Origin: Lineus longissimus
Taxonomy: Eukaryota > Nemertea > Pilidiophora > Heteronemertea > Lineidae
Direction of reading: 5' to 3'
NCBI RefSeq assembly: GCF_910592395.1
Contig: NC_088309.1
Location: 6,946,501-7,010,500, forward strand
DNA: 64,000 nucleotides
The notes below the pieces were generated by a model, which did not search any database, had not been told where the DNA came from, and saw only the letters and a program-made list of their open reading frames with translations. A program made the translations under genes and the position numbers. Numbering within the stretch: the first letter of the stretch is position 1; every line of letters starts with the position of its first letter. This document shows positions 3,063 through 39,163 of the stretch, piece by piece.

Positions 3063-3079
3063 CGAGCTCGTCCCGCGTC

Positions 3080-4105: not shown

Positions 4106-6140
4106 ATGGCTGAGCAACACCAACACATGCAACAGCAGCATCACCAGCAGGTAAGGTGCAAATACTAAATAGGAAGTTTCAGAGGTCACAAATATGGCTA
4201 CTAAATGAACGCATAGAAATAAGGAAAATTGGCTGACTGTTCAGGTCGAAAAGACGTTCTATTGTTGAGCACGAAAATTGTTTGATGAAACTGCAACAAA
4301 TTGCTAAATAAAGATTATTGGACACCTCAGAACTTTGGGGTAATCATTGTCTTTTGATTCTAGGGTCAGCATATCACTGCCCAGATCCTCAATGTCCAGG
4401 GTGGTGTTGCAACATTGGATGACTCTACCCCGATACAGATCATGATGCCCACTGGTGTAGTAAATGTGATGGAGGAGCAGCAGCAGGTTCCTCAACATGT
4501 CCAGGAAATGCAGGAGGTCGTCCAAGAGGCTGTTGAAGGTACACATGGCCCATTGGAAGACCCAAAGCTTGCTAACAAGAAGGAGTTGAGCAAGCAGTGG
4601 AAAAGTCTTTGCAAAAGAGTAAGTGTCAATGATGCTGATTATTGTGGTAATAACTTTGTTATGTACAAATGGGGAGGGCAAGTTTGAACACATGTTATGC
4701 TCCTGCTGCCTACTACCAAAAGTACACAACTTGTAGGTAGATCAATATCAATGGTAAATACATCAGTTTGTACAATGTTTGTTTTACAAGTATTATAGCT
4801 GCGTGATGAGAGCCTCCTTCATGAATTTAGAATGAACCTCCTGCTTGCCTCAGCATCACTGGATCTACCAAAATATATGATTGTCTTCTTTCTGGATCCC
4901 TGTCTTGTCCATGAGGTGTACAAATATGATTGACATGATTTTCCATTTTCAGGCAAAACAGTGGTGCAGCATGCATGATGATAGCGTCCCAAACTTTGTG
5001 ATGATGTATTTGGATGAGAACCGTTTAGTTTGGGAGGGTAAGTATTGCAATTTTGGTAAATGAATTTGTAGGATAGAATTTAGAATATCAAGAAAACATT
5101 CACATCCAAATGTAGTTTTGTTCTTGAGCAGCGTCACCAGGACTGAAGTTGGCATGTGAAACCCATGATGAAATGATTTCTACACCTGATTGGTGATTCA
5201 GTAGCAAGCAGTCAGTGTTGTGTTTATTCAATGTGGTTGATAGCTGATAGATCGGTCATATCTGTTGTTTTAGGCCCTGACCATATGGAATCATTCATCA
5301 GCGATGAAGGTGTGATCAGTGCTTTCCTCAGGACAGCTGCCCTGTCTGAAAGTCTCATTGGCATGGAGAAAAGGGGTGCTGATGAGGTTCAAGGTATTTA
5401 CTGTTTTATGTATTCCGCACTGATCAGCAGAACTCGGGTGTATTTTCTAAGGTGGCTGAATCAGTGCGATGCCTGGCAAATAAATGCTAACATATTGCTA
5501 ATGCATAAGTTGAAATTGATTCAAAATCTTTGTAGTTGTATTGTAAGTAATTTTTGCAATGATTGTTCTCTGGTGCAGACTTGTAAACTTCTTGAAATTT
5601 CCCACAAATTATAAGTAAGTTGAAATAAAACTAAAGAGTACAAGCACTGGCTGTCTCTTAGGAATTCAGGTTATTCTGACTCCCTGTAATATTTTAGTGA
5701 TTTTAGCACAATATATTTTTAGAAGTGTGTATATCGTGCTTCTGTGTCGGTATGTGCCTATGTGACCATTGATTGTGGTCTTTCAGAACCTGCACAGAGA
5801 CCTGCCAAGAAGCAGAAGAAGGCGGCAGAGCCTGCAAGTGCTTCTAAAAAAAGTATGACTGATGAAGAAGTCATAGCCTCGATCCTTGAAAAGCCTGAAG
5901 CAGAAAGTCGAGATTCTACCCAAGATATGGGAGCCGGTGGTGATGAGAATGACTCCGATGGTGGCGCTGGTGGCCAAGCCGTTGAAGGAGACCAGCCAAG
6001 CCAGTCAACATCTGAAGGGCCATCCCAGGGTGGTGAGGGTGATGTGCTCTCACAGGTGATAGAGAGCGTGATCAAAGAGTGGGCGCCAGGTCAAGGACCG
6101 CCCCCTCGTACTTCTCCAGGGGAGGAAGAAGGAGATGGAA
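4106..6140 (+). CDS. Common 5' exons of the multi-terminal-exon zinc-finger locus
   Basis: Six coding exons: 4106-4150, 4364-4618, 4799-4915, 4953-5037, 5274-5393 and 5787-6140. They total 976 nt (325 codons plus one base), with matching phases and GT/AG borders. The start follows AAAAAA and is preceded by an in-frame TAG. The N-terminus is Gln/His-rich (residues 1-15). Next comes a Gln/Val/Glu-rich stretch (about 16-85), then a predicted helical, partly hydrophobic segment (about 86-207). A basic NLS-like RPAKKQKK lies at about 212-219, followed by an acidic, Gly/Ser/Pro-rich linker to residue 325. I do not recognise any domain; it is not BTB/POZ, KRAB, SCAN or ZAD. No zinc finger lies in this part. 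The last exon ends GGA-A before gtaagt, so every downstream exon must supply two bases, and all fourteen finger exons do. Exon 3 (4799-4915) is the least certain: weak acceptor, donor gtgtac, and phase 0 on both sides, so it could be a cassette exon. Confidence 0.8.
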
Positions 6141-8004
6141 GTAAGTTGACTTCTTCTTACTCTGCTAAGGTTTTCTCACTTGGTCCAAGTTATCTGAAGT
6201 CACAATTGGGCACACACTTAAATTGCCTTATGTCAAAAAAGATTTCTTTGTGTTCAAGAAAGTCATTCTGACCTTTTTCACTTATTGTTTGGTATTGGTA
6301 AACCATAAAAGATGATTTCTTGTTAGGTTTGCATTTTCTATAGATTATCAGTACAGTGTGGTAGTACTGCCAGCAGCAGCATATGCTTAGCCTTATCTAC
6401 ATCTAAATTGAAAAAGTGGATGGTATTTTCAAAGAGGATAGAATGAATGACTTCAGGTTGAATGGTCCTTGTGAAAGGACAACAGACAAACAAAAGTGGG
6501 GACCTCATAATGTGTCCTTGTAGAGTGACTGATCAAGACAAGGAGATGATAAGAAGTGTAATGCCAGTTATGAGTTAGTGTTGAATGGTGCTAATTGTAA
6601 TGTTGGAAACCGATCCCTCAAGTTTCAGTCCAGCCTGGAGATATGATATCAATGGCATTGCTCTAAAACCTTGAACAATATGTTTTGAGCAAGAATAGGA
6701 TTGAGTTTCATTTCGTTCGGTGTGGTATATTTTCTCACCTCTGTCCTCAGATGTTCAAATTTTGATGAAGATTTTAGAACCTTGCATTACCACAGGCATT
6801 TCACAAAGTGTTTAGTCTTGAAATGGAGTTGTTTTTCCAGCTCCTAGTCCTACTTCCAGTGTGAAAAGATACTTACTACTACAAGAAAAATATTCATTAT
6901 TGACTTGGGATTTCACCTTCAGATGGAATAAACTAGACCAACAGAAAAGTTCTACATACTGGCATTCCTCTTCTTATTGTTGACTTGTTTGATTTGTCAT
7001 CTATTCAGATACATTTTGTCCATCCAGATCATCATGACAAAAATGAACAAAAACGGCCACAGAATATCTCGTCATATTCGTATTCACTTGGTGTTTTTCA
7101 ATCGACTATTGCGGCATTTTGTCTGTTGTCATTTTGTAGAAATTGCTTGCTTAGTTTTCAGGAAAGGTAAGTATTAGTTGTCAAAGTGAAAAGCCTCTAC
7201 TGCCAGGATCTTCAAGAACAAAGCTGTGCAGATCAGTGATGCCAACTGACACCTGAAAGAAGGAAGATAGATGCTATCACCTTTTCATTCTATCATTACG
7301 ACGACAACACAGTATTGACCTTCTTTTATTGATATTCCTCTTTGTCTTTCTGATAACATGAATGATTGTGTCTGCATGTGGAGAATCGGATTTTATGAAA
7401 TGTAGTAAAGACGTGATAACATTTGCCACTTAAAAGGAATCATGGCCATTTGAATAAAGTGGTCAGTCATTGACCTGCAACTGCTCAATTAGACCTTCTC
7501 ATGATAGTGACAACTTTTTCAGAAAGTTTTTCATCTTGAATTTCTCAATTCTCCATGCAGTGATTTTTGACTGCTGTGTGTGGTGTTTGGGATCACTTTG
7601 TTGGCTGTCCTGATTACAGAACATTTACTGGGGCTCTTTCATTCTATTCTAGTTGGATTGTGATATCTCGTATTGGTTGGGGAAGTCCTGATTGTTGAAA
7701 TACCTATTGTCTTTTTCAAGTCTTCTGTTGCATGCTCATTGAGAGGTCTGGCTGAACTTAACTGAAAAGAAGCCAATCAATTCAGTCAAGTAGGCTTTTT
7801 GTGACGCATGTAAGAGAAATGCAGAGCTTCTTATTGGTAGATCCAACCTTGGGACAGTCGCTTGGTGGGTTTTAGATCCCCTGTACAGTGTATGATGTGC
7901 ATCGAATGCCAGTAGGATAAAATGGTCAACTCGATAAACTGGAGAGATAAGGATATCCATCGTGATACAATTGAACCAACCGTGTCTCACCACCTCCCTT
8001 CCAG
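6141..8004 (+). other. Intron between the common donor and the first finger exon
   Basis: This is the shortest of the fourteen possible introns from the common donor (1.86 kb). Open frames around 6977-7177 have stops in the frame the donor needs and show no finger motif. I see no RNA gene or repeat. Confidence 0.6.
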
Positions 8005-9293
8005 ATGGCGACCAGAGGGCACAAGTGGCATTATCAATACCAGTAGTTGCTGTGGACAGATGTGAAACAAGTCGGAGGTTGCCTTCTCGTTGCTTGAATC
8101 TGCCTGGAAAATCTACGCTCTATAAGATGCCTAAGGCTTCTTATCAGCAGAATTCAAACAAGAGTTTGGGACCTAGCTCGGTCAAGAATTCTGTTGATCG
8201 TAAAATAACTATATGCACGTTGTGCTTGAAAAGAGTTGACGGAACTCATGACTGCAGTGGAAATAACCAAGCAAAGAAGGCCGCCAGCAAATTGACAAAA
8301 AAACTACGTGTTTCGGACTCAGAGAGCTGCATTCATTGTGGGAAAAGTGTCAAAACACAGCATATGAAAGAGCATGTTCGGACACATACGAAAGAACCAA
8401 AGTTTACTTGTGATTTATGTGGGAAAGGTTTTATGAAAAGTTCATTACTCTCTGCTCATTATCACAGGCACACAGACAATAAACCATTTCCTTGTGATGG
8501 ATGTGAAAAGACATTCTTTAATAAAGCTTCGCTGCGGCAGCATAGATTGATGCAGCACAACGTCAGTCCTTGGGATGATGGCGAGAAAGCTGTTCATAAA
8601 TGTCCTCATTGCGATCGAGTGTTTGTGCATAAGAGCAAGCTTGGTTTTCACATTCAAAAACATTCTCAAAATAAACGTTTCATATGTGAATATTGTAGTA
8701 GGGCGTTCTTACGTAATTCAGACTTGAGAAAGCATATCCGGTGTCACACTGGAGAGATGCCGTACAGCTGTTCTCTCTGTGGGAAAAAGTTCAAGCAGAG
8801 CTCAAACTTTCGAAGTCATTTGAGAACTCATAATACCGACAAGCATATGTGTGAAACTTGTGGTAAAAACTACACCTGTGAACGTAGTTTCAAAAGACAT
8901 TTGGAATCTCATAGAAATCCGCAGCCAAAGGAAAAGACTCATTCAAATCATCCACCGGTCCCTGGCAATCCAAATATGATTGTTACAAGTGCAGATATGC
9001 ATGACAACCATGGTCTGATGGTGATACAGGAGGCATTGCAAATGCAAGAGCGCATGTCTCAGCAGCACAGTGTTGCAACCGAATCTAGCCAGGGTTTCAT
9101 GGATAGTCTGTCAGACTATCTACCATGTGAGACGCCACTGAACCGTGACCTCCCTAATGTTCATTGTCTTGGTATTGGTACATCAAGTGACCAAGCATAC
9201 AGTGGTTTGCCTCCTATGCAAATGGTAGCAGCTGACAATTTTAGTGCTGTACCGTCTGATCCCTTTCATACTCTTCATAATCAAATGCAGTGA
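8005..9293 (+). CDS. Alternative terminal exon 1: seven C2H2 zinc fingers
   Basis: The exon begins after CCTTCCAG and adds AT to the pending A, giving Asn-Gly-Asp. It encodes 428 further residues before TGA, for a predicted isoform of about 754 aa. Seven C2H2 fingers occupy about 8328-8913. The first has a short spacing (CIHC...H...H), and a degenerate CTLC...HDC half-finger lies just before. Fingers 5-6 (NSDLRKH, then QSSNFRSH) form the SDL/SNM-type pair shared by most exons of the locus. Linkers are variable, with one TGEMPY. The tail of about 130 residues is Met/Gln/Ser-rich without a recognised domain. An ATTAAA at 9411-9416 can serve as poly(A) signal just before the next acceptor. It is probably a nuclear DNA-binding protein; the target is unknown. 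Confidence 0.88.
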
Positions 9294-9490
9294 TCCCCTC
9301 ATTTTCATTTTCTTCATGTGTAATCGAAGTTGGTGCATTCCTGTTTAAAACTTTGCTAGCTTGTCTCTCTGCTTAAAGTTCATGAACAAGATATTTGAGT
9401 GATTTTCGGCATTAAAAAAATTGTTTTAGTGTGTTTGAACTAAGCAAGAAATCAAAACTGTAACTCATGTGGACCTCCCATCCATTGCAG

Positions 9491-11520
9491 ATGAGGCCCT
9501 TGGTGAAACCAGATGTTCCAATCGTGGGGTTCAGAGTGTTGGCTCAACTGGTCATTCTCGTATTACTCTCGTCCGGAGCTCCACCCTTTCTGAAGCTTTA
9601 ATCAATACTAAACAACCACTACCTACTCCGCGAGCTACTTCTGATGTTACTTCCACTACTGCTCAGCGATCTTCCCGACCAAAGATGAAAGTTATTCATG
9701 TTGCCAAATCTTCCAAGTTGTCTAGGACAAAACTGAAAGTCCACGTCAAGCCAAATGCAACTACTACAAAATGTCAGTGTGAAGTCTGTGATAAGGTTTT
9801 TCCATCCAGGATGAAACTAAATTTTCACATGCAGACTCATTCCTGGGACAAACCTGGTGTGTGCAATCTCTGTGGGAAACGCTTGTCATCTCTGTATAAC
9901 TTGACTCTGCACAAACAGTTAGCTCATCCAGAAGATGAACAGTTCACCTGCTCTTATTGTGAAAAAGAATTCAGCGACAATAAAACAATGAATGAACATA
10001 TCACCGAGAAACATGGGGAAAGTGCTCCACCAAGTGTGTCTGTGGCTTCACATCAGAGTGCCAGGAAAACTTTGTTTGAAAGCGAGAAAAAAACCCTCGA
10101 ATGTCAAACATGCCCTCGTTCCTTTTCAAGTCGATTTGATCTGCTCCGTCATGAAAGCAGCCACACTGGTGAAAAACCTTACACTTGTGAAATCTGTGGG
10201 AAAACATTCACGCTTAAGTCTACTCTGTCCCAGCATCTCAGGAGACACAATGATAAGAAACAATATGCTTGTCCCAAGTGTCAAAAGACCTTTCGTGAAT
10301 TGATCAATATGAAGTGTCATGCCAACAGAGTATGTGGATGTTCGTATGATTTAAGTGCGTGTGCTAAGAATACATGCACGACTTGTTCCCGTGTGTTTAT
10401 GAGCCAGCGAGACCTCATCCAGCATGAGAGGATTCATACTGGTGAAAAACCATTCATCTGTGACCAGTGTGGTCGCAGTTTTGCTCGGAAATCTGATCTG
10501 AACCAACACATTCGTCGCCATATTGATAAACGTTGTTTCCCTTGTCCCAAATGTGGAAAGGTGTTCCGCGACTCTATCAATATGAAGCGTCATGCAAACA
10601 ATAAATGTGGTTTCTCTTTTGATATCGGTGTTTACGCAACACGTAATCATGTGTGTTCGAGTTGTGCTCGTGCGTTCATGAGTCGTTGTGACTTGATACG
10701 TCATGAACGTATTCATACTGGTGAAAGACCATACACCTGTGATCATTGTGGGAAAGCCTTTACGGTCAAATCAAGCCTGAATAAACATATCCGCGTTCAC
10801 TCGAACCAAAAGCCCTTTCCCTGTCCACAGTGTGGTAAAAACTTCAAAAATGAAGCATCTGTCAAAAAACATTGCAAGAGTGTTTGTCGATTTTCTGTAC
10901 TCGGCGATATTGGAAAGGAAAAGATTGTTCTGAGTAAGAGCAGTTTAGGAAGTCACCTGGCTCCTGGTGACAAACCATACCCCTGTTTAAAATGTGGCAA
11001 GAATTTTAAAAGTCTCAAGTCTGTGAAAAATCATGCAAAGAAGGTGTGCAAGTACTCCCTTGATAGTGTTGAAGGGAAACAGGCCTTGATTTTGAGTAGG
11101 AGTTTGGTTGAGCTGCCTGAGCAAATTACTGCTCGTCCGCTCTTGGACCCTGTGCCGGTTGCTCCTGCAGCTGTAGGTGTAGCAGGTCCCTCAAGAAATC
11201 TTGAGACCCACCATCAGCTGGCTATGCAACCTCAGAGGCATTGTCAATATTGTGGGCTGTTCCTTGATGATCAGTCCTACAGGCACCATATCTGTGAACA
11301 GGTACCAATGGGTCATCACCAAGTCTCACATGCTCAGATTAGTGGCAGCAGTGCCCAGTTTGTTGTTCCATCCTATAGTCAGAGTCTATCCATTCCAGTG
11401 TTGGACGTCAATAGTGAACGCATCCATGTTGAAAATCTGTACCATAGTACAAACATGTCCAATTCTGGTCAAGGTTCATCAGTCATACCATCATGTGATA
11501 AAATATTGCGCTTATTGTGA
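9491..11520 (+). CDS. Alternative terminal exon 2: about thirteen zinc fingers, some CCHC
   Basis: The exon begins after CATTGCAG with AT, giving Asn-Glu-Ala. The predicted isoform is about 1001 aa. Fingers span about 9772-11050, with a further partial finger near 11240-11300. Several modules repeat in the order classical finger (DLxxHERIHTGEKP), classical finger, then a C2HC finger in which the last His is Cys (CHANRVC, RHANNKC, KHCKSVC, NHAKKVC). This internal repeat shows that the array grew by duplicating a three-finger block. No canonical AATAAA/ATTAAA lies before the next acceptor at 11814, so its 3' end may lie further downstream. The intron sequence just before its acceptor resembles that of exon 3. 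Confidence 0.9.
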
Positions 11521-11814: not shown

Positions 11815-13592
11815 ATGTGCCTGATGAAGCCTTTGGAACTGTGAAGAGCGAGATCATCGAGGTTCCTGATCAGAAGCCTTCTGTCAGTCTCATCCGTGGC
11901 TCTGCAATGTCAAAAGTGGGAAAAGCTACTGCATCTGAATTGGCTTCGAAACGTGGCACATCCACCGAAGGTGTTGTTGCGCTGGCGGTTGGTGAGGAGA
12001 ACCTCGACGATACGGGTGTCAAGCCAGAATTTCTTTGCGCATGTGGACTTGTCCTGCCAAGTAAAAAGTTGTTCCGGCAACATTGTCTGACAACTCACAA
12101 AGGTCCAAGAGCATTCCAGTGTCAGATATGTGAGAAGATCTTTGCAACTGGCCAGAGGCTGAAGGGACACATGTTGGTACACACGGATGGTACTCACAAG
12201 GTTGCTGCTATTCCTGCTGGCCCAACACTTTTTAATTGTCCTGAATGTCCAATGAAGTTTAGTCTGAGATTAGCGCTAAAATACCACATGAACAAAAAAC
12301 ATGGCAAACCTTTAAGAGATAAAAGTACCCAGGAAGAACACATGTACAGCAGTCTGAGTGAAAACGTCACTTGTCGAAAATGTTCAACCGCTTTCAAAAC
12401 TAGGGGTGAATTGAAAGATCACATGAAAACCCACAAACCAGAGAAAAAATATGCCTGTGACCACTGTGGGAAAAAGTTTGGCTACAGGTCAACATTGAGA
12501 AAGCATTTGGCTACACACCGCAATACGGGTGCTGGGGATTCTGATGGGGAGAACTTGGGTGGTGGGGACGTGGAAGGTGGTGAAAAAAGTGCTTCAAGGC
12601 GGCCTTGCGTCTGTGAACAGTGTGGCAAAACACTGAGTTCAAGACGGTCACTCAAGATGCACAAGTTGTGGGTGCATCAGGGTGTCAAACCTTTCCCTTG
12701 TCCTCACTGCCCACGGCAATACTGCCAGCGTCGCGATTTAGATCATCACATCAACATCAATCATGGCAGTGCCAAGTTGCTGAAGATTGAAGTGAATCGT
12801 GACGGGCGGCGTGTCGTGTTGGGTCGTGGGAAACATGCGTGTGAAATTTGCCAACGTGAATTCAGTAGCAAGCGGCCGCTTCAGGTCCATATGAGAATTC
12901 ATACGGGAGAAAAACCATTTTCTTGTGAAACTTGTCATCGACCTTTTGCACGCAAGTCTGATTTAGTGAAACATGGTCGTCTTCATACTGGAGAGAAGCC
13001 TTATGAGTGTCCAGTTTGCCACAAACGGTTCAGGGCAATCAGTAACATGAAGCTGCATGCGAGAAAAAATTGTAGATATGAGGCATTTGGTCCTCTGCCT
13101 CCAAGTGCTATATCTCCTGTCAAAACTGTCTATGAAAAGGGCAACTACAGTGTAGTTGATGTGAGTGAAGCTGCAGTGGAAGAGGTGTACACTCAGTTTG
13201 ATCATCAGATTGGTAGTAAGGATGTTGAGCAGATTGAAGTCTGTTACGAGACTGATGGAGGCGTGATAAGTGAAGGTCATGTACTCCAACCCATTGATGG
13301 GGTTCCTGCCGGTAGTTACCAGGTCATCATTCCAACTGATTCGGATTCTGGTGGTCTTACCACAATTGAGTTGCAAGATATCAGTCAGGCTGTAGCATCG
13401 GCTGCAGAATATACTGATCAAGGCAGACAGCTGGTCTACGTTTCCAAAAGCCTTTTGCATGACATTCCATCTACCAGTGCAGTTGGTGCAGTGCCTGAAC
13501 CGTCAACGAGTGAAATCCACATGGCTGCTGATACCATTGCAAAGATTGAGGCTATTCACAATGCCCAGTTAAATCGAGAGTACCAGACGTAA
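11815..13592 (+). CDS. Alternative terminal exon 3: ten zinc fingers
   Basis: It begins after GACATTGCAG with AT, giving Asn-Val-Pro-Asp-Glu-Ala-Phe. The predicted isoform is about 917 aa. Ten fingers lie at about 12034-13073; the last is C2HC (LHARKNC). Fingers 8-10 form the DL/SDL/SNM triplet that it shares with exons 2, 4 and 6. The linker before finger 8 reads VNRDGRRVVLGRGKHAC, which matches the linkers of exons 4 and 6 and points to common descent. The C-terminal tail of about 170 residues is acidic and Val/Ser-rich. An AATAAA lies at 13863-13868. Confidence 0.9.
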
Positions 13593-14094: not shown

Positions 14095-15788
14095 GTGAAG
14101 ACAAGGATGGCACCACCGATGTGTACTTGCTGGCCTTGGATGAAGGAAACCGACTACCAAAGGGTCAGCTGGTAAAGACGACACTGGGAAAGTCGGATCT
14201 GAAGTCGAAAAGGGAGGCACAGTCTGATGTCCTCACGATTGTCCGCTCTCAGGACATATATGTTTACAAAACTGTGGAACATAAGGAACCTAGTTTTTCC
14301 TTGAATAAAAAGAAGAGGAAGGGAGTTCCACGGCGTTTGCGTAAATCTTTATTACCAGCAAAGAATAATCGGGCTTACCACTGTAACCTGTGCAGCAAAA
14401 CGTTCAAAACATCGCAGAAATTAACACTCCACTTGCGCCGACATGCTGGTGAAAAACCTTATCAATGTGACCAGTGTGATAAAAAATTCTACATGCGGTA
14501 CATGTTGCGCACCCATGAAAAACTCACTCATGAAGGACAGAGGCCATTTGAATGTGAACACTGTTCAGCTAAGTTTACTCAGAAACGCCACCTGATAATG
14601 CATACTAATATTTACCATAATAATATTGTCAGGGAAATGACTGTAAACCCTGAAGGTCGATTGGTGCTGGCAAAAGAAAGAAACCATATCTGCGAGGCGT
14701 GCAATCGTCCTTTTCTAAGCAATTCTGATCTTGCTCGGCATTTGAGAATCCACACCGGTGAAAAGCCATTCAGTTGTGGAAGCTGTCAAAAAGGTTTTGC
14801 GAGAAAGTCTGACCTGACAAAGCATTTGCGTATTCATACTGGGGAGAAACCATATGCCTGTTCTTATTGTGGTCAAAGATTTCGTGAACTGTCAAACATG
14901 AAGTCCCATGCTCGCACACACACTAAAGAACAATGGACTTGTCAGATCTGTGGAAAAGTTTTCCCAAGTTCCAAGTCCTTGAGAACACACAACTTGACTC
15001 ACGCCCAGGGTGAAGCTGCTGTTGAAACAACCACTGCCCAAGAAGGTGCTCAGGAGCACAATGAACAGCTCATCGTGACCAGCTATGAAGGCCTTCCTCA
15101 AGTTCCTGTTGCTATAGTACCGACAAAGGCCTCCTTTCGAAGCCCAGTTATGCTAATCCCAACTCAACCAAGGGGTATCAAATTGTCAATGACTTCAAAG
15201 CCAGACCAAACTGATCCTATTCCCCATACCGAGTCTTCGAGAAAACGTGTGAAAAAGCTTGAATCAGTGCCACAGCAGCAGCAACTGCAGCAACAACAAC
15301 CCCAGATTGTCCATGTTCAAACACTGACCCCGCAACAGCAGCAGCAGCAGCAGCAACCCCTGCCACAAACGTCTCATCACCAAGAGCACACCACCTTGCC
15401 GCAGCAGACAGTGGCCAGTCATGTGTCCAGACCATATGATGAAGAAGAATTTAACCCGGCTGCTGTACTACAATCTTTACAAATCGGACCCCAGGTGCAC
15501 ATCTCTACAACCCCACAGTCCATGGGTGGACCAGTATCATATGCCCAAGTGTATCCTGCCCCTGGTGTACCAGTGTTCAGAAATATGTACTCTCAGCCTA
15601 TGACTAGTTACATGACATTCCAGAGTTCTCATGACCATGGGCATGTGCAACACCCGGGTCCTCACAGTCAACACACTGTACAGCATTCTGTTCCCCATCC
15701 TGGTCAGGGACTCACTGGCCAAACTGATGAGGAACAACAGCTCATGATGCATCAGCAGCATGATCTGCAAAGTTTGTTGAGAAAGTAA
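14095..15788 (+). CDS. Alternative terminal exon 4: seven zinc fingers and a poly-Gln tail
   Basis: The exon begins after CTTTCCAG with GT, giving Ser-Glu-Asp. The predicted isoform is about 889 aa. Seven C2H2 fingers lie at about 14376-15003. A linker TVNPEGRLVLAKERNHIC precedes finger 4 and is nearly the same as in exon 6. Fingers 4-6 are the conserved NSDLARH / RKSDLTKH / ELSNMKSH triplet with perfect TGEKP linkers. The tail of about 260 residues is rich in Gln and His, with Gln runs encoded by mixed CAG/CAA at about 15273-15300 and 15333-15356, and resembles glutamine-rich activation regions. A possible ATTAAA follows at 16097-16102. Confidence 0.9.
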
Positions 15789-16317: not shown

Positions 16318-17699
16318 GTGATGGCGCTGTCAAACCTGCAACCAAACCACCAGAAAGGGTCTCCATTGTCCGAGGAAGCAAATCTGGGCATTCTAAATTG
16401 AAAGACCGACTAAAAGTTGCTGAGGGTCGAAATGTCTTTTGCCCAGAATGTGGAAAATCTGTTCCGAGGACGCGGATCAATTCTCACATGCGTTTTTTGC
16501 ATAACAAGAGAATACATTACATGTGTCCTGTCTGTGGTGATAGGTTCTTGGAGATGAGAACGCTTCAAATGCATGTCAAAAACCATGGTGATATAGGAAG
16601 GGTTGGAGGGGTTGATGATAAAAAAGTCAGTGCAGTGGATCCCTCGTATTCTGTTGCTATTGATCCGTCTTCATATGCTACTACTACTACTAATACAGAG
16701 GTCGTTACACCTACTGACACACTAGTAACTACTGATGACGTTCAATCTGCCAACGACGAACCAGTAGTTCCTGCTAAACCTAACGTTTTCACGTGCCACA
16801 TTTGCAACAAGGAGTTTTCAAGAAAGTCTGTTTTGAATGTTCATGTGAAGAAAGTTCACTTTAATGTGCAGAGCAAGTCGGAAATAAGACCTAAGTTAAA
16901 GATACATGTGTGTGCCGTCTGTCAAAAAGCATTTGATCGTGCAAATACATTAGATCGACACATGGTTGTTCATACTGGTGAAAAGCCCCATACTTGTCCT
17001 CAATCTGGTTGTGGAAAGAAATTTGCCAGGGTTTGTGATATGCAGCGTCATATTTGGGGCCACACAGGGGAAAAACCGTACGCATGCCCACATTGTCATA
17101 TAAAGTTCCGTATCCCGGGCAACCGTAACCAGCATGTTGAGGCAAAACATAGTAATGTGTTATTTGTCTGCAGAGAGTGTCAAAAAACTTTCCGTGCATT
17201 TTACCTGTACAAAAAGCACATGCGGCATTCACACCAGATGGAGGTTTCTAATTCAAATCGAAACGAAGATGGTGTGGTACAAAAAATTTCACGAGACCAT
17301 GAACAAATAGAAACTTTGCCTGTTTCTGAGAGTGGAATGTTCCCTCAAGGAGCCGAGACCTTGGAAATCATCCAACCAAAATCACCATCAGACAGTGTCC
17401 AGAAAACTGCAGATTCAGTTTCGATCGAATCATCAAACCTTTCAGAACCAATTGAAGATGAAGCTGCTGGACAGCTCCTCTTATTGAGCTCACAAAAAGC
17501 GAACAGAAACGTTTTAGTCAAGCTACCAGCTGGTGAAGATGGTGATTCTAAAATGCTTCTTGTTACAATACCAGATCTTTCTGGAGAAACCTGTTTTCCT
17601 CTGTCAACGGAAAACGGGGATTATATTTTGGAATGTAAAGATGGAGAATTCAAACTTGTCAGCAGAGAGAACCAGATGATAATGTCCACAAAAAAGTAG
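16318..17699 (+). CDS. Alternative terminal exon 5: seven zinc fingers
   Basis: It begins after CTGTTTTCAG with GT, giving Ser-Asp-Gly-Ala. The predicted isoform is about 785 aa. Fingers lie at about 16440-17234. A Thr/Ser-rich spacer of about 60 residues separates fingers 2 and 3. Finger 5 has an unusual extra residue pair in the Cys-Cys turn (CPQSGC). Fingers 4-6 carry TGEKPH and TGEKPY linkers. The C-terminal tail ends with GDYILECKDGEFKLVSRE, a motif that recurs in exon 7. No canonical poly(A) hexamer lies before the next acceptor at 17987. Confidence 0.88.
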
Positions 17700-24785: not shown

Positions 24786-26575
24786 GTTGCCCGAGAAATG
24801 TGGTGATAACCCTCTGCCAAAGTTCCAAACCAAACTCCGCAAAAGAAAAGATCCTGACCCAAGCAAGGCTCAGACCCAACGTTGCCTATGACCCCCTTGC
24901 CTCGTCTGTGATACAGCCTTGCAAGAACCAACCTGTTGAAGAACATGCAAATGTCAAGACGTTGTCTGCTCAGAGAGCAAAAGTAAGGAAAGCTAAAAGA
25001 AGCAAAAAAGGACCCAGTTACCCCATACTTTCTCCAATTAGAAAATATGATGCGAATGATCACCCTTCCAGTATTGAGGTTCCCAGGCTTGATAATACGC
25101 CATGTCCTATATGTCAACGGCAAGTTCCATCACCCTACCTGGAGCAGCATGTTTTGCTTCATGAAGAGAAAAAGCTGGGAGAGCAATCTCGGTACATTGC
25201 CTGCAAGGTATGCTGTGAACCCATTGAGTACAGCTCCCTGGAGGACCACATCAAGAACCACAACTCCAACGGCGAAGGAGACTATCAAATCTGTGACATC
25301 TGCTTGACAGTTGTTCAAACGAAGACGTACCGTAAACACCTCTTGATTCATGAACGGAAGCTGGACAAAAAACCTGCACCATTCCAATGCAGCACTTGTC
25401 AGAAAACTTTCTGGCGAAAGTCCCAATTGAAAATTCACCAGTCCACGCATTCAGCCCAGTCCGTGTTCACTTGTGAAATATGTGGTAAATCCTACCGACA
25501 AAAGGCTGAGCTGAATCGCCACCGACGGAAAGTTCATCTCGGAGATTTACCACATGTGTGTTCCCTTTGTGGAAAAGGCTTCCTCACCAAGTATGAGCTG
25601 AGCCGACATGATATGGGCCATAAGAATATCCGCCCTTACAAATGTGAGCGGTGTGATAAATGTTTCGTCACGAAGATCGAGCTGAATATTCATGTTCGAT
25701 CTGTTCATGAGAGGAAACCTCGTTACGATATTGAGAAGATAAAGTTGAGGCGTTATAAGTGCGATGTCTGTTCCAAGTCTTTCACTCAGAATGCCATATT
25801 GATGGAGCACAAGAGAACACATACAGGTGAACTGCCTTATGTTTGTGAAGTTTGCGGCCAATCTTTCAGGCATAAAGGTACGGTGAAGAAACACATGTAT
25901 ATGCATACTGGAGAAATGCCTTACGAATGTAAACATTGCGGACAGAAATTTCGAGCCAATTCCAACATGAATTATCATATCAGGAAGCACCACGATGGTG
26001 GGAAATGCTTTTGTCATATTTGTGGGAAGGGGTTTGGGAATGACATAGGTCTTCAGACTCATTTGAAGAAACACAATGTAAACCTTCATATCAGTGATAT
26101 CAGGGCTATGGATTTGGATAAACCTCAGCCTATCACTGGCGCAAACAAGACTCAATTGCCTACTCCCCCTCTTGTTCCCAAAGAAGGAATGTCTGCTTCA
26201 GCTCCTCAGCAACCCGTACCAATCCAGCCCAAACCGCAAGTTCCTGCACTAGCAAAACCTGATGCTCCCCTTGCAGCCATTGAGGTGCATCAACTGCCAC
26301 CCCGATCACACTTCCAGAATCAGATGCTCCAACATTTATCAGTTCAGCAAGTTCAGGAACAACCCCAGCAGCAGCATGCCAGCCTCTCCCATATTCCCCA
26401 TCATCACCAACCCTTCCCCCAGTCTCAGCATCTCTACCAGCCTGCCCAGCATCAGCCATTCCTTGACTCGCTCCAAGTCCATGAAGTCTTTCTCCCTCTG
26501 ATGGATTCACACAATGTTGTCTCCAGTAATGAAGGTGGTACCAATTTTCAATCAAGGGATACAAATCTTCAGTAA
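24786..26575 (+). CDS. Alternative terminal exon 9: eleven zinc fingers, Gln/Pro/His tail
   Basis: It begins after GTTCCTTCCAG with GT, giving Ser-Cys-Pro-Arg-Asn. The predicted isoform is about 921 aa. The leader has VVITLCQSSKPN as in exons 7 and 8, then a Lys/Arg-rich patch (KVRKAKRSKKG) that could act as an extra NLS. Eleven fingers lie at about 25100-26075 and align one-to-one with those of exons 7 and 8, including the three atypical N-terminal ones. The tail is Pro/Gln/His-rich (about 26160-26500). An AATAAA lies at 27004-27009. Confidence 0.9.
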
Positions 26576-27274: not shown

Positions 27275-28344
27275 ATGCTCTCCACAAGACTATGTCCATT
27301 GATGGCGGGATGGTAAGAGTTGTCATTCATCGGTCAGGTTCCGGGCCCTCAAAGTCTGAAGTTCCGTCAAACACTGAAGTGCAGGAAGAGGTGATGGAGG
27401 CATCTGAAGTAGTTACTACTGAGAAACAAATCTTATCCAAGTCGGATTTTAGTTCGAGTTCTTCCTTGAAAGTAAAGAAAGGGAGTGTGAATTGTGACGT
27501 TTGTCAGAAAACACTAAAAGCGAAAAACTTGAGTACTCATATGTTGATTCATACGGGTGAAAAACCATTTAAATGTGAAATTTGTCATCGCGAGTTCCGC
27601 CACCCGAGCTCCTTGGCGCATCACGCTAATCGGCATCTTGCGAATAAGCCATTTGCTTGCAAGCACTGCAAAAAAGTGTTGAATTCAGAGCGATCGTTGA
27701 AACTCCATATGAAATTCCATTGCCCCAGGAATGAGGAGAAAGACCAACCAGAGCGTCGACAGTTTTGCGAAATCTGCTCCAAAACGTTTGCGACGAAGAG
27801 TGTTCTCAATCGCCATATCAAAGAATGTCATTACAAAGATCAGCCGTATGTTTGTGACTTCTGTCGTCATGGATTCTCACGGAAAGACGACCTGAAGAAG
27901 CACCTGTGGTTGCATACTGGCGAAATGCCATATACATGCGACATCTGTGATAAGCGCTTCCGTCTTCCATCTAACATGATGCAGCATCGCCGCACACACT
28001 CAAATTCAAGGAAAAAAATCATTTGCGATACTTGTGGAGTAGAACTGCCAAGTCTGGCCAAGTTGAGCAAACACAAGGAGGAACATGCTGCCAAACCTAA
28101 ATTCTCTATTGGTATCGTTCCAACAGATCAGGTCACCTTGCCAACAACTATGGCTGCGGAAACGTTACGACTCCTCTCTGAAAGTGGTCAGCAGGACATC
28201 GAAAATGCAACAGTTACAGTTTCTACTCTGGAAATCAGTCCAGAGGATAGCCTTGCTAACCCACATGAGATTATACTTCAGGCTGAATCTGGGGTGCGCA
28301 TTGTTGAGGCCTACCTTGTGCCTTTTTCTAGGGGTGATCAGTGA
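27275..28344 (+). CDS. Alternative terminal exon 10: seven zinc fingers
   Basis: It begins after ATTTTTTCCAG with AT, giving Asn-Ala-Leu-His. The predicted isoform is about 681 aa, one of the two shortest. The leader MSIDGGMVRVVIHRSG resembles the leaders of exons 11-13 (VxVHR). Seven fingers lie at about 27490-28087. Finger 1 lacks the usual aromatic residue (CDVCQKTLKAKNLSTH). Fingers 5-6 (RKDDLKKH, LPSNMMQH) with TGEMPY form the conserved pair. The tail ends with an acidic/hydrophobic RIVEAYLVPFSRGDQ. An ATTAAA lies at 28608-28613. Confidence 0.9.
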
Positions 28345-29061: not shown

Positions 29062-30974
29062 ATGTTCAATACAGAACTCTGAACGTTAAGGACGAGGAGA
29101 TCTCAGTTGTGGTGCATCGGAGTGCAAAGAACTTTGCTGTCAAGAAAGCCAAACCTAAAACCCCTCAAGTGCGAATGATACAAATTAAGGTCAGAAAACG
29201 GGAAGAAGATACTACAGAAGACCCTGATATTTCTCCTGATCAAAACAGTGATTGGTCGTATGATGACAGTTCAAATGTTAGAATTAAGAGAACAGCAAAG
29301 CGTGTTACTATAAAAGTGCCGAGAGGCTCTTCTAAAGAGAACAGTGTGAAGATAATGAAAGAAAATGTTATAGTCGCCCCTCAAATGGTTCCGTTGAATG
29401 AACGCCCTGGTATGTTTATGAACTCTGCCCGCACAAAACATGATGACATTGATGATGACCAAAAAGCTTACTGTCAGCAGAAAGACGGTACATACTTGTA
29501 CGCACGTTCGTCTACATTTTCGGAAGGACCCACACCTGATGAACGATCCAAACCTCCACATCACGTTGAGCATAACTATGGGAAGAAGCCAGTGAAGAAG
29601 AAGCGAGACTGGCTCAATAGCGCGAGGCGTAATGAGGATGCGACGTGCGAGATCTGTGGCTTTACATTGCGGAAAAGGTCGCTCAGGGGCCACATGAGGA
29701 TTCACACAGGAGAGAAACCGTTCGAATGCGACGTTTGCAAGGAAAAATTTCGTTACAAGGATACACTTCAGAAACACAAGCTTGAGCACACTGCAGACCC
29801 CCGACCATATAAATGCCCCCATTGCCCTTGCGACTACTTTTCTCCAAAATATTTGTCCTGGCATGTGAAGGATAAACATCCTGATCCATCGGTTTCTTCT
29901 GAATGGTATGAGGACCCGAAAAAAACTGTTTTGTGCGAACTGTGTGCAAAAATGTTCACGCCATGGGGCATTCGAAATCACATGAAACGCAGTCATCCAA
30001 ATGGAGAAATTGAAAAGCAAAAGACAACAAGTAAAAGAAAAACTTCTACACCAAGGGCGAAAAAGTCTTCTGGATATTGGTTTCCTTGTCCTTTTTGTGA
30101 CGGTCTTTATTCAAACCAGCACAGCCTCAGCATCCATATATCAAATATACACAAAGAGGAAGATTTCCAGGAAGCTTTCGATGTGCAGCCAAAGTTCATT
30201 CCGGCCAAGAAGACTCATCTGTATAAGTGGGGTTATGGCCTCTTGAAGACGTGCGCTGTCTGTGAGAAGACCGTGTCCAGACTGAGCTATGGGAAGCACC
30301 TGCTGTCTCATAAAGGAGAGAAGTCGCACCAGTGTTCTGTGTGTGATACCACATTCCGTTATGCTGGCTCTCTCAAGTTGCATCAAAGAAGCCACTTGAA
30401 GAAAATATCTGCCTCAACTCGGACCAAGCAGTTGCGCAGAGCCAAGCTTGAGATCCTACCCTATAAGTGCAAAACTTGCAATAAACAATTCGCAGCATCT
30501 GCCATGTTGCGAAAACACGAATTCCGCCATGGTGTACGAGTGCCTTCAAAGTGGAGGCCCAAGTCTTGCATTATATCTCTGCCACCGGACTATAAACCGC
30601 AGAGTGCACAATCTAAGAGAAAGAAGGGTCGTCCACCTGGTCACAACAAGTACTGGTGGGCTAAAGATGGTTTAACTAGGTCTCGGGTACCTAATGAAGA
30701 GGATCCGAATTTGTTGCACACTGAGACTCTCCTGACAGCATCCTCGGCTCCTGTTTTGGATGTGCAATATATTCCTGTGGTGAAAACGGAGCAGTCACCA
30801 GTGTCCTCTGAGGCATCAAAGGCTATAGAGGCCTTGGTTCATAGCCAAAGTGCTGTTCCGTGCCAAATTGTACAAACAATTGATCAGTCAGGTCTTCAAG
30901 AATTTGATTTTACTACTCTGCAGTTGGAAGAGATTGACGCAATTGCAGGAGTAACATTCAAGCTCCCAAAATAA
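29062..30974 (+). CDS. Alternative terminal exon 11: eight zinc fingers and an AT-hook-like motif
   Basis: It begins after TATTTTTTCAG with AT, giving Asn-Val-Gln-Tyr-Arg. The predicted isoform is about 962 aa. The leader QYRTLNVKDEEISVVVHR is shared with exons 12 and 13. Eight fingers lie at about 29643-30531. Finger 4 (CELCAKMFTPWGIRNH) and finger 5 (GYWFPCPFCDGLYSNQH) are almost identical in exon 12. After the fingers, KRKKGRPPGHNK resembles an AT-hook. The acidic end (EFDFTTLQLEEIDAIAG) could be an activation motif. The first ATG in the exon lies far from the acceptor, which fits an internal splice start. No canonical AATAAA/ATTAAA was seen before the next acceptor at 31786. Confidence 0.9.
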
Positions 30975-31786: not shown

Positions 31787-33711
31787 GTGTTGAGCACAGA
31801 ATCCTTAACATTAAAGGTGAGACAGTATCTGTTGTCGTGCACCGAAAGCCCAACAACGAGACTTTTCTGGAAGTTGCTCCTAAAACCCCTCAGGCAAGAA
31901 AAATACTAATTAACTTGAAAAAGCTTGATACTGAGCCCGTGGCGAAGGTGGCAAATGAGGGTTCATCACATCATGGAGATAACTTTCAAAGCTCACCAAT
32001 GGATGGCTTGTGGGATCAGTTCGAACCTGCAGGGAGTGGAGTGCCATCTGATGATGTGTATGGTACTGCTGCGGTTGATGTCCTACTTAGGAACGAGCAA
32101 TTGATAATGAACAATATTGCTGGCAAAGACAGAGATTCTACTGACGATATCTGCCCGAGTGTTGTAACAGTTGACCAAATTCCCATCGGCGATGACATGT
32201 ACATTCCTGACACTACATTGAATAAGGGAAAGCCTGGCAAGAAATTGACCCCAGCGAGAGCTCAGTTCCTCAAAAGTGATCATTCTTATTTTCTGTTTGA
32301 GCCTCGAAAGGATAGTCGTGAAACGCGGAGAGCCTATGCTGATAGTGTCAGGCATATTGAGGCCACATGCGAGCAGTGCGGCCTTGTCATACGCAAAAGG
32401 TCCATGTGGGAGCATTTGAGATTAGTTCATGGGACCGAAGACCCATGGGAATGTAAAGTCTGTCATAAGAAGTTCCGTTATAAAAATACCCGGGATGTAC
32501 ATGAAAATAAACACAGTGCCAATCCAAGACCATTCAAGTGTTCAAAGTGTCCGAAATCTTACCCGTGTGCCAAATACCGGAACCTCCATGAGAAAGCGAA
32601 GCACTCGGGTGGTTCAAACTGGTTTGATCACCCTGAGAAAACAGCCCTGTGTTATCTATGCGCGAAAATGTTCACTCCTTGGGGTCTGAGGAATCATTTG
32701 AAAAAATCACATCCAGGCGGAGTCGTTGAGAAAGAAACCAAGCCAAGAAAGAAATATTTCTATCCAATGCAAAAGAAACCAAAGCAAAAGCTCAGGGAGT
32801 CTGGTTACTGGTTTCCCTGCCCTTTCTGCGACAACCTTTACAGAAACCAGCATTTTCTAGCAAAGCACATCGCACTAAGTCATAAGGGTCATGATCAGAA
32901 TCTGGCCTATGGCGTAGCACAACGATTCGTTTCAAATCGCAAGACTGTTGGTTACAAGTGGGGTTTTGGACTGCGTAGATCTTGTAATGTTTGCCACAAT
33001 AGTGTATCACGCTTAGAGTACAGGCATCACTTATTGTTGCATAGGGGAGTTGGATCACACCAATGTTCGGTTTGTGATGCTACATTTCGTTATGCTGGCT
33101 CTCTCCTGCTGCATGTGAAATCACACGAAAGGGGCAAGTCCTGCAAGCGTGCTGCATCAAAGCATTGCCGGCAACTAATTGCTGAGAATCTGCCCTATAA
33201 GTGTAGAATTTGTCAACAAACATTTCCAACTCGTAGGAAATTTTGGAGGCATCAAAATAGCCATGGTATTCGCATTGAGGCGAAGTGGACACCTAAGTCT
33301 TGTTTGATCACTTCATCTAACTTGGGTCCTGAAAATGTGCAAGGAGAGATGGGGGAATTTGTAAAGAAATCTACAAGTAAAAACAGGGAGGTTTTAGCTT
33401 CTCTGCCAGTTGGTCAAGAGACCCAAGGCTCCAGGTTGTATGTCAAAACTGCCCCTGGAAAGAAAGATGCCCAGAAGAAGAGCAGTTCAGTGTTCCCCAA
33501 ACCAGTAGTTCCAGTTACTGGAGGACCTAAGCCTCATGATGACGAAAGTGACTTTTTGCAAGATGTGCATGTTTTTGTTGAAAGAGCTTCCAGCGAACAA
33601 CCGAGCACAAGTACAGAACTTGGTCGTTCAATTGAAGCTTTACAGTTGGCTGAAGGCTTCGACCTTTCCTCAGTGTCTATCGTTGAAACTGATCCCGTGA
33701 TCAAGTGGTGA
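31787..33711 (+). CDS. Alternative terminal exon 12: eight zinc fingers
   Basis: It begins after TATTTTTTCCAG with GT, giving Ser-Val-Glu-His-Arg. The predicted isoform is about 966 aa. The leader HRILNIKGETVSVVVHRKP aligns with exon 11, and eight fingers at about 32365-33265 align one-to-one with exon 11 (CAKMFTPWGLRNH, GYWFPCPFCDNLYRNQH, CSVCDATFRYAGSLLLH). The acidic segment before the fingers and the C-terminal tail have diverged; the tail ends GFDLSSVSIVETDPVIKW. An ATTAAA at 34054-34059 lies only about 30 bp before the exon 13 acceptor. Confidence 0.9.
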
Positions 33712-34088: not shown

Positions 34089-36271
34089 ATGTTCAGTATA
34101 GGTCTCTGAATGTCAAAGGCGAGGAGATTTCAGTGGAGGTACACCAATGGGCTAAAGACTATGGATATGCTGAATTGGCTTCTAAAATCCCTCAAGTTAG
34201 AAAAAAAACCCTAATTGGCAGAAGTTTCATTGAGGAAGATACTGTGAATGAGGAAGATCTGCCCTGTTGTCCTGATTATGGTAACAAAAGAGGTGACAAT
34301 CCTGATAATGGTGTAAAGATGCCCTCTCGACAAAGAGATCAGAATGATCTGAACTGTATCGTGTCAGAAGAGAGATTGCCCGATGGTGTAGAAAAGGTCT
34401 TGTTCCGAACTGGCAGTGTTCAAAGTCACACCAAGTCTACATGTAAGTCTGTGAAACTTGCTGTTAGATCAAGGAAAGAAGCCTGTACCGAATCAAAAAC
34501 TGCGAAAACAACAAAAAGTCCAGTCATACCTAGGCCACCTGATCATGTGATTGATCATAACTATTCATTGGAATCAAAACCACCGCCAAGAGTTTATAAA
34601 AACCCTGTCCTGGTTAAATGGGAGTTGCGGAGTAAGCCTTGTCCTATTTGTTCAAAGGTTGTGCGACTCAAGTGTATGCGTGAGCATATGATTGTCCATA
34701 AGCCTAAAGACCATAAGCCATGGAAGTGTGATGTATGCGATGCTGGTTTTCGCCATAAGGGTTCGTTGAGAATACACGAACGAAGCCATCTTCCAGAAAG
34801 GCCTTTCAAATGTGACCAGTGTCCTAAAGCATATTTAGCTCAGAAGATGCTAAGGCATCATATGAAGATACACGCGCCTAAAGAGGAACGTGCCGTGGCT
34901 GCTGCTGCAAGAGCTGTTAAAAAGAAGGAAACTGTTCTGTGTGAATACTGCGCTAAAGAGTTCCTCTCAACAAGTTTCAAACGACATTTAGAACGCTGTC
35001 ATCCAAATGGTGAAATTTCGCTTAAACAGACTAGTCTCAAGGGTACAGCTAAGAAGAAACTTCCTGGAAATTGGTTCCAATGCCCCATCTGTCAATGTTT
35101 ATATGCCAAAACGGGAGGTTTGAAAAGGCACATTTCAAAGGCTCACCAAAACGAGAAACCAGCCATAGCTGACACTGTTGAATCTAAGTTTATTGTTCCA
35201 GATGGGGAGAAGAGGAAATACCAGTGTCATGATCGTAGTTCTGATCGGGTCAACTGTGACATTTGTCAGAAGTCACTGATGAGGAAATGTCTGCGTCGTC
35301 ATTTGTCTATCCATAATTCAGAAATGCCTTTTAAATGTACATCTTGTGACCAGGCTTTTCGTACTGCTTCCAATCTCAGACGACACAAAATGATTCTTCA
35401 TGGAAAGCAAGAACCATTCAAGTGTGTATTCTGTGGCACATCATTTCGCAACCGCTTAATTGCAACTAGGCATGCTAAAATCCACTGTTCGTGTAATCCA
35501 GAACGTGAAAAGAATCGGAAAGAGGACATTAAAAAAAGGAAATGTCCATATTGCAATAAGATATTGTGCAGGAGTAACGATTTGAAGAGACACATTAATG
35601 ATGTCCATTTGAAAGTCAATTCATTTCCCTGTGAAATTTGTGGTCATGTCTTCCATCGAAGACGAGACATGGTGAATCATGTGAAAGCCCACTCTAGTTT
35701 AGGTAAAAATCATGTCTGTAATGTTTGTGGGAAGAGGTTCCGTGCACGCTCCAACATGTTGCAGCATCATCGAAGAAAGCATATGCCTGGTTTGCCCTGG
35801 CGGTGTAAAATCTGCGAGGGCGGATTTCCTACTCGTGCTACACTAAAACAGCATGAAGAAGTTCATGAAGGCAACATTCAAATGAGTTCTTCTCAAATGA
35901 AAAAATATGTTACAACAGAACATTTTGCAGCTGGCACTGAGAGCTCTTACACTGCTGATAACTTGCAGTCAGTTCCTGCAAGTGCTGTTTACTCTGATGC
36001 TACGCCGAATAATCAGGCAGGTCATTCTCCTCAGCTTGAACCTGACCCGAGTAGAACTGAAGCTTCTGAAGCCCAGGAAAGACATGTGACAATAACATTG
36101 GAGGATCTTGCGGCTGGGGGTTATCAACAGGTGACTGAAGATGCCTATGCTGCGGCTAACCTGCAGTTGTTGCCTAACAGTACTGTTTACACAACGCAGG
36201 ATGTTGTATTGAGTGAGACCGATGAGATGCAGGTCGTTGAGGCATTATTGATGTCTCCATATATAATTTGA
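34089..36271 (+). CDS. Alternative terminal exon 13: twelve zinc fingers
   Basis: It begins after TTTTTTACAG with AT, giving Asn-Val-Gln-Tyr-Arg. The predicted isoform is about 1052 aa, the longest. The leader QYRSLNVKGEEISVEVHQW aligns with exons 11 and 12. Twelve fingers lie at about 34636-35868. The first five follow the pattern of exons 11/12 (CAKEFLSTSFKRH). The later ones include RRRDMVNH and RARSNMLQH, the conserved pair. The linker between those two is SSLGKNH instead of TGEKPY. The tail is acidic and ends MQVVEALLMSPYII, similar to exon 10. AATAAA hexamers follow at 36560-36565 and 37437-37442. Confidence 0.9.
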
Positions 36272-38105: not shown

Positions 38106-39163
38106 AGAAGAAGTTCCGTCCCAGGATGCGACGTAAAAGGAAACCGCACTACATAGTACACACAAATGCTGGAACGTTTGAGATCGTCCATACCGTGAAG
38201 GCATCTGGTGTCCATAAGAAAGCTGGAGGGGCGGTACGTCTGAGAGTTCGGCGAGCAGGACAAGAGAAACAGATGTTTACTTGTGAGATTTGCGGGAAGA
38301 CCTTATCCAGAAACAACATGGCGGCCCACTTGCGTATCCATCGACACGATTTTAAATTCTTCTGCGACGTCTGCCAGAAAGGTTTCTATACGAAGAAAGA
38401 TATGGGCGTGCATTATAGGATCCATACTGGTGAAAAACCCTATAGTTGTCACATCTGTTCTAAGGCATTCAGGCAGAAGTCCAAGGTCACTGAGCATATG
38501 TTGACCCACTCCCATGAGAAGAAACACATCTGTGAATATTGCAGTCAGAAGTTCGCCCGGCGATCAGATCTCAAGTGTCACATCCGGCTTCATACGGGAG
38601 AAAGGCCTTACGCCTGCGACCAATGTGGGAAGAAGTTTGCTCAGCCGGGAAATTATAGCGCTCATCTCCGCACACATTCGAAGCAGACGTTTGTTTGTGA
38701 GTATTGTGCGAAGTCATATGCCAGTTTGGGCGGCTTGAAGGAGCATTTGAGGGTTCATGGTGAGAAGAAGCACCAGACGCAGATGCATGGCCAGCAGGTG
38801 GTCCAGCAAATACAGGAAGAAGTGCAACCACATCAGATCGTGGAGATGGAGCTGCATAATCCACTCCTGCAGCCGCAGCATCAGCAGTTGGTGACGCAGC
38901 ACCAGGGGGTGCAGTACACGCTGGAACAGCAGCCAGGCAACACGTACACATTCCAACAGCAGCCCCAGGGGAGCCAAGGTATGCTCGTGACCCAGGACGG
39001 ACAGCCGATCATGTCACATGGTCAACCGACGGTCGTCTCTTTCCCACAAGATCAGCTGACGCAAAGTGTTGTAATCGACCAACAAGGCAACCAGCAGACG
39101 GTCCAGGGCCAGGTTGTACTCATAGAACAAGGAAATCAGCAGACGAGAATTGTCATGCAGTAA
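38106..39163 (+). CDS. Alternative terminal exon 14 (most distal): six zinc fingers, Gln-rich tail
   Basis: It begins after TTGTCTTACAG with AG, giving Lys-Lys-Lys-Phe, the only exon whose junction residue is not Asn or Ser. The predicted isoform is about 677 aa. A basic leader (RPRMRRKRKPHYIVHT) precedes six fingers at about 38278-38759. Fingers 4-5 (RRSDLKCH, QPGNYSAH) are the conserved pair with TGERPY. The tail of about 130 residues is Gln-rich. The next clear AATAAA is far downstream (41980-41985). Confidence 0.9.

Follow-up and report, generated by a model that had tools for sequence, protein, structure and literature searches.

Does the long run of zinc-finger exons on chromosome 2 of the nemertean Lineus longissimus belong to many genes or to one? 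The array lies in a stretch of 64,000 nucleotides (nt) of assembly GCF_910592395.1 (NC_088309.1, positions 6,946,501 to 7,010,500), here called the window; positions are those of the window unless another chromosome or contig is named. On its genomic architecture, the locus is very probably a transcription factor gene with alternative terminal exons, similar to lola of Drosophila, in which a common front of 286 residues precedes fourteen alternative last exons. This single gene could encode fourteen different transcription factors.

The common 5' module is predicted to comprise five coding exons on the plus strand: exon 1 (4106 to 4150), which carries the ATG start and is Q/H rich; exon 2 (4364 to 4618), with a positive in-frame codon score; exon 3 (4953 to 5037), whose own codon score is not positive and which was found at one genomic site only; exon 4 (5274 to 5393), which was recovered in the genome search described below; and exon 5 (5787 to 6140), encoding a basic stretch, which we label as nuclear localization signal-like, followed by an acidic low-complexity segment. 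The donors of exons 1 and 2 are in phase 0 and those of exons 3, 4, and 5 are in phase 1, with that of exon 5 at position 6140 as the predicted common donor. All five exons have GT-AG borders, the spliced product is 286 residues plus one base, and jointly the exons score as coding (0.243 per codon versus a mean of -0.164 and a maximum of -0.029 for noncoding pieces). An earlier annotation made from the letters alone, here called the sequence-only reading, had listed six common exons, where five coding exons were counted here; a noncoding first exon is possible, and none was sought. Retention of the intron starting at 6141 would yield a 329-residue form without fingers.

A Pfam scan of the 286-residue module gave no family at E ≤ 1, and at this threshold no BTB/POZ domain was seen in the common front, nor any KRAB, SCAN, or ZAD domain ahead of the fingers, in agreement with the earlier proposal that the module differs from BTB. 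Relatives were sought among 5.8 billion proteins with a word-based search, which needs shared five-residue words and limits length. Module residues 1 to 180 retrieved 222 candidates, none at E ≤ 1e-3, although a diverged relative could escape a search of this kind, and residues 82 to 169 retrieved 19 candidates, none at E ≤ 10, from a database that may omit the L. longissimus genome. The best matches of 168 module residues in the PDB had E values of only 0.53 to 0.92, and no relatives were found in the viral contigs searched. In the L. longissimus genome itself (391,118,348 bases in 30 contigs), the module produced four matches, which were its own exons 2 to 5 in the window, and none within the finger array; a local tblastn search of the window and the 10 kb upstream detected no extra copy either. 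Such a genome search is able to detect internal modules, since a search of this type with a module from chromosome 18 did reveal copies inside its array.

The fourteen finger exons are all on the plus strand and are named here by their acceptor positions. They are located at 8005 to 9293 (6 fingers), 9491 to 11520 (13 fingers), 11815 to 13592 (9 fingers), 14095 to 15788 (7 fingers, with the first Met inside finger 2), 16318 to 17699 (5 strict fingers), 17988 to 19123 (8 fingers), 20297 to 22005 (8 fingers), 22430 to 24435 (8 fingers), 24786 to 26575 (8 fingers, with the first Met after three finger starts), 27275 to 28344 (6 fingers), 29062 to 30974 (5 strict fingers), 31787 to 33711 (5 strict fingers), 34089 to 36271 (9 strict fingers), and 38106 to 39163 (5 fingers), the last lying 1.8 kb past the thirteenth. 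When joined to the module exons, each of the fourteen forms a single uninterrupted frame with one terminal stop. All fourteen acceptors are preceded by AG, and every exon length leaves a remainder of 2 when divided by 3. Acceptors were scored with an approximate splice-site matrix that is blind to phase, over a span that starts about 60 nt ahead of the open frame, ends at the first finger, and contains 16 to 61 AGs per exon. The proposed AG had the top score in 12 of the 14 exons and ranked second in the other two (11815 and 17988), at both of which the better-scoring AG is in the wrong phase. The chance of phase agreement for the 12 first-ranked acceptors is (1/3)^12 if they are independent, but two exon triplets are clear duplicates, so the truly independent cases are fewer. 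These results uphold the earlier description of fourteen same-strand finger exons, each with an acceptor and a stop. The accompanying claim that every exon starts in the phase required by donor 6140 holds for 14 of 14 exons. However, 6140 is not the sole compatible donor, since phase 1 is likewise left by the donors at 5037 and 5393.

C2H2 fingers are present in all fourteen exons, 102 by a strict pattern, 107 by a loose one, and 113 by a hidden Markov model built from the strict fingers, which is below the previous estimate of about 126; with 5 to 13 strict fingers per exon, the arrays are nevertheless long, as had been stated. C2H2 families led the Pfam results for the four finger exons scanned (of 14), with no FLYWCH listed, and the matches listed for exon 29062 in the protein database (120 of 952) resemble generic finger proteins, the first of them being 26% identical over 40%. 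The gaps between a stop and the next acceptor are as short as 197 nt. AATAAA or ATTAAA occurs between the stop and the next acceptor in 10 of the 14 exons (within 1.5 kb for the last exon), consistent with the earlier remark that most are followed by a poly(A) hexamer. Past the fourteenth exon, no plus-strand frame of at least 120 residues was found in the window except for 48751 to 49131, which lies opposite a DMGDH-like exon.

Evidence that translation enters the finger exons from upstream comes from the sequences preceding their first ATG. The first ATG of exon 24786 is at residue 276, after the start of three fingers, and that of exon 14095 is at residue 133, inside the second finger, so an internal start would cost these exons three and two fingers, respectively. 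For exons 29062, 31787, and 34089, protein-guided alignments of the span before the later first Met of each pair gave nonsynonymous (dN) and synonymous (dS) divergences of 0.61 and 2.47 (29062/31787), 0.52 and 2.87 (29062/34089), and 0.67 and 1.65 (31787/34089). The mismatches at the three codon positions in the first 37 ungapped codons numbered 13/9/20 (Fisher P = 0.012), 10/10/20 (P = 0.005), and 14/10/21 (P = 0.012) for the same pairs, which are not mutually independent. Judged from these substitutions, the frame is maintained upstream of the first ATG in this group. The lack of an early ATG in two exons and the third-position divergence before the ATG in three others argue that at least these five are translated from an upstream exon; the pre-ATG tests are informative for these 5 of the 14 exons and do not decide for the other nine. 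The single module copy, the common frame, the 197-nt gaps, and the coding signal before the ATG thus provide genomic evidence for one 5' module serving fourteen finger exons, as the sequence-only reading had proposed.

A CpG-rich stretch at 2801 to 3400, to which no strand is assigned, is the likely promoter. Over the 64 kb, the observed/expected CpG ratio of 400-nt windows averaged 0.52, and its two top values, 1.58 (at 3001) and 1.34 (at 2801), were located 5' of the module, while the 400 nt ahead of each finger exon ranged from 0.23 to 0.74. At 200-nt resolution, a ratio of 0.97 was not exceeded in 13 of the 14 intervals preceding finger exons, compared to 1.97 at 3001. The CpG signal favors a single promoter ahead of the module, but it is not confined to that site. 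The exon at 1822 to 2232 on the minus strand is FeS_assembly_P-like (E = 0.0023, below the curated cutoff); we take it to be part of a CIAO2-like gene, which may use the CpG-rich promoter jointly with the finger locus. A further CpG peak was seen at 52.4 to 52.8 kb, between a DMGDH-like gene (minus strand) and a BHMT gene (plus strand).

In the mechanism that we propose, transcription would begin near 2.8 to 3.4 kb and continue into the array. Every last exon there supplies a 3' splice site, C2H2 fingers, a C-terminal tail, and a stop codon of its own, and most supply a poly(A) signal as well. Donor 6140 would be joined to one acceptor, and the poly(A) site of the chosen exon would terminate the mRNA, giving one finger array per mRNA. 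The proteins would then all share one effector or partner-binding front and differ in their DNA-binding arrays.

The finger exons also carry traces of how the array may have grown. Every pair of window exons matched in blastp at E ≤ 1e-5, as expected for C2H2 arrays. Sequence similarity shows a clear tandem exon duplication in two groups of three, 20297/22430/24786 and 29062/31787/34089 (140 to 653 bits, with similarity starting from exon residues 1 to 5), and exons 14095 and 17988 are mutual best matches (224 to 228 bits). A two-finger core with the helix contacts [RH]x[DST]x and then x[SGI][NS]x was identified in 12 of the 14 window exons, with exactly one finger following it in 10 of those 12. 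The core was found in 1 of 12 and 0 of 4 exons of comparable loci on chromosomes 18 and 1, respectively, a contrast that is somewhat flattered because the pattern was derived from the window exons. Its contacts are RSDK-like and then xSNx-like in these 12 arrays, as if most isoforms retained one common DNA half-site. The core suggests a wider common descent, and tandem duplication is likely for most of the fourteen exons, which would stem from one ancestral terminal exon duplicated together with its acceptor. A short motif near the starts of the finger exons ([KRS][IV][TSV][LIV]xR-like; 11 of the 14 exons entered the test, one or two per close group) had a score that was reached in 1 of 60 shuffles; this borderline result was not taken as evidence.

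Similar loci were identified elsewhere in the genome. On the minus strand of chromosome 18 (contig C19), twelve long zinc-finger exons occupy positions 13690613 to 13715715. The front exon (13718386 to 13717736) encodes 217 residues and has a phase 0 donor, and the best-scoring internal exon in the next 2 kb, chosen with no condition on divisibility by 3, is a mini-exon of 28 nt that shifts the phase to 1. All 12 exons, with 138 fingers, fuse in frame via TGCAG acceptors in phase 1, and in 7 of the 12 the first finger is not preceded by a Met. These acceptors were picked with phase 1 as a condition, and those of the chromosome 18 and chromosome 1 loci were partly chosen by motif; without the phase condition, the top acceptor was in phase 1 for 11 of 13 frames and coincided with the chosen one for 7 of 12, the thirteenth being a short frame with three fingers (13715799 to 13716344) that was excluded from the twelve. 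The chromosome 18 module was found at 11 places in the genome (12 matches, of which two are pieces of one), including two copies within the array (13704649 and 13700663), each with a phase 0 donor and one of them with a matching mini-exon of 43 nt. The interpretation of this array as a single 12-exon gene was rejected on account of these internal copies; by position, it would represent three genes (13690613 to 13718386) with 6, 1, and 5 zinc-finger exons. The front exons of the three neighboring genes are rich in psi-K-x-E motifs, and for two of these genes a second exon of 28 to 43 nt was detected. The chromosome 18 module, which had no Pfam match, contains seven psi-K-x-[ED] motifs, a type of motif linked to SUMO. 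CpG peaks were seen ahead of two of these three modules (at 13719000 and 13705400), and stronger ones at 13.681 to 13.687 Mb were assigned to no feature.

A third module was located on the plus strand of chromosome 1 (contig C1) at 23476819, with a phase 0 donor, a candidate small exon, and then at least four zinc-finger exons, four of which have TTGCAG-type acceptors, all in phase 1. A fifth zinc-finger frame lacks such an acceptor, and by score alone three of the five top acceptors were in phase 1. No copy of the chromosome 1 module was detected between the finger exons of this locus (23475247 to 23487994); a single diverged copy is present on the opposite strand in head-to-head orientation. 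Both loci resemble that of the window in having a module with a phase 0 donor, a candidate small exon that changes the phase to 1, and several zinc-finger terminal exons readable in phase 1. However, their fronts are unrelated to that of the window (no blastp match of the window module to either module at E ≤ 1), and the two-finger core is absent from most of their finger exons; the chromosome 18 locus also differs in having three modules for 12 exons and in the presence of its module at 11 places. On contig C5, dense zinc-finger matches were observed at 5.74 to 5.78, 11.36 to 11.59, and 22.38 to 22.60 Mb, many of them in short frames of about 100 to 150 residues, as if this family were split into many small exons or pieces.

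Several observations weigh against a single gene of fourteen terminal exons grown from one ancestor. An ATG precedes the first finger in 12 of the 14 exons. The codon-position test was flat for 20297/22430 (mismatches 1/4/1; P = 0.92), 20297/24786 (P = 0.70), and 22430/24786 (P = 0.54). The stops at 11520, 17699, 30974, and 39163 (4 of 14) are followed by weaker poly(A) variants only. The CpG ratio reaches 1.61 at 13843 in the interval before exon 14095 (200 nt, 7 CpGs, GC content of 0.295), 400-nt windows with values of 0.96 to 1.18 also occur within finger exons, which makes the promoter signal not unique, and the 1.8-kb gap ahead of the fourteenth exon could be the site of a separate start. 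Docking and selector sequences of the Dscam type were sought by pairing the intron at 6141 to 8004 with the 250 nt before the acceptors, and at word lengths of 8 to 11 the pairing was no better than with 10 shuffled introns. The apparent 12-exon array on chromosome 18 holds three modules. The median score among window exons was 102 bits (91 pairs) versus 123.5 bits (168 pairs) between window and chromosome 18 exons, and a tree of 30 exons placed the four chromosome 1 exons among those of the window; the window exons are thus no closer to one another than to those of chromosome 18, and a single ancestral exon for all fourteen is not established.

Some of these points, namely the 12 exons with an early ATG and the CpG-high 200 nt before exon 14095, are what a tandem cluster of separate zinc-finger genes would display, each gene having its own promoter, a noncoding or short 5' exon, and an internal ATG start. 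Such clusters seem to be present in this genome, as on contig C20 at 11.11 to 11.12 Mb, where a Met precedes the first finger in five of five zinc-finger frames of the 20 kb covered, as in ordinary genes. Even so, we regard separate genes as improbable here: exons 24786 and 14095 would forfeit three and two fingers, the frame is maintained before the first ATG of exons 29062, 31787, and 34089, and the acceptors agree in phase throughout, as would not be required of untranslated leaders. Moreover, gaps as short as 197 nt separate the exons, 13 of the 14 pre-exon intervals stay at or below a CpG ratio of 0.97 against 1.97 5' of the module, and neither the genome search nor local tblastn found a second module copy. 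The short gaps, together with a poly(A) signal ahead of several acceptors, would also fit an operon-like array resolved by spliced-leader trans-splicing, in which the acceptors take a leader rather than the common exons. The common phase and the coding evidence before the ATG speak against it, and a leader without an ATG would be unable to serve exons 24786 or 14095 whole, which makes this the most remote of the explanations weighed here. A different form of trans-splicing would draw the module and the finger exons mainly from separate transcripts, as happens in mod(mdg4). It is one variant of the alternative-terminal-exon reading, and the probabilities of the two overlap. The DNA architecture alone cannot separate cis from trans, and trans-splicing occurs in mod(mdg4) and lola, according to the reports on these genes (PMC4667647, PMC1947980). 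Since all 14 exons are on one strand and no more than 33 kb from the module, cis-splicing would suffice, and we consider a mainly trans-spliced gene unlikely.

The best-known genes with one front and many DNA-binding ends are the insect BTB genes. According to a report on lola, common 5' exons are combined in Drosophila with many alternative 3' exons, mostly with zinc fingers, to give at least 20 isoforms, with BTB in the common part and one or more fingers in most isoforms (PMC1947980). The nemertean locus, judged by its genomic architecture, is similar to lola in having one common 5' part and alternative finger-bearing 3' exons, whereas its front has no Pfam match in place of BTB and each exon has 5 to 13 strict fingers. 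The insect mod(mdg4) is reported to combine a common 5' part with numerous variable 3' parts, giving at least 31 isoforms in Drosophila, with BTB and mostly FLYWCH 3' parts, some of which are on the opposite strand and trans-spliced (PMC4667647). The likeness again lies in one common 5' part with many variable 3' parts, whereas the nemertean locus has C2H2 arrays, all on one strand, and no FLYWCH in the 4 of 14 exons scanned. The fruitless gene is likewise reported to have a common N-terminal part with alternative finger exons. The same holds for broad and tramtrack, and these two and fruitless have a BTB front, few alternatives, and few fingers per exon. In vertebrates, isoforms of ZFP64 have a common front and different finger exons, with two alternatives versus the fourteen described here. 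By its predicted architecture, the nemertean locus works like lola and mod(mdg4) but falls outside the BTB family, because no BTB domain was found and its front part is unrelated. In the titles and abstract openings of the open-access literature, no such locus was found outside insects, which is weak evidence, as most subscription papers are not covered.

A DMGDH/SARDH-like gene with DAO and GCV_T domains (44335 to 50543, minus strand) adjoins the BHMT gene (53733 to 56778, plus strand); the human DMGDH-BHMT neighborhood is similar, which hints at an old linkage. The region at 61360 to 63762 contains three copies of a 300-nt repeat that are 97% to 100% alike, two of them within a direct duplication of 811 to 813 nt, and three minus-strand frames, each about 100 residues long and similar to one another, one of which was scanned and matched no Pfam family. 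Counts of TAGGCCTA were uninformative on the taxon.

In the nemertean genome, there seem to be loci with 1, 2 to 3, 4, 5, 6, and 14 finger exons per module (beyond chromosomes 2, 18, and 1, among the matches listed), and such graded exon numbers in one species would make the growth of these loci traceable within the species. We lean toward the view that, outside arthropods and with non-BTB fronts, this genome has repeatedly built multifactor genes by multiplying the zinc-finger terminal exon alone behind one promoter and one effector module, so that diversity arises through last-exon choice and not through whole-gene duplication, with most arrays of the 14-exon locus keeping the two-finger core and varying the rest. 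If this is true, the architecture, here with an orphan front, evolved independently in a lophotrochozoan and probably did so on more than one occasion, and C2H2 repertoires are able to expand by terminal-exon multiplication under one promoter, in steps that the smaller loci of the same genome make testable. Zinc-finger gene counts in such genomes would then understate the number of factors.

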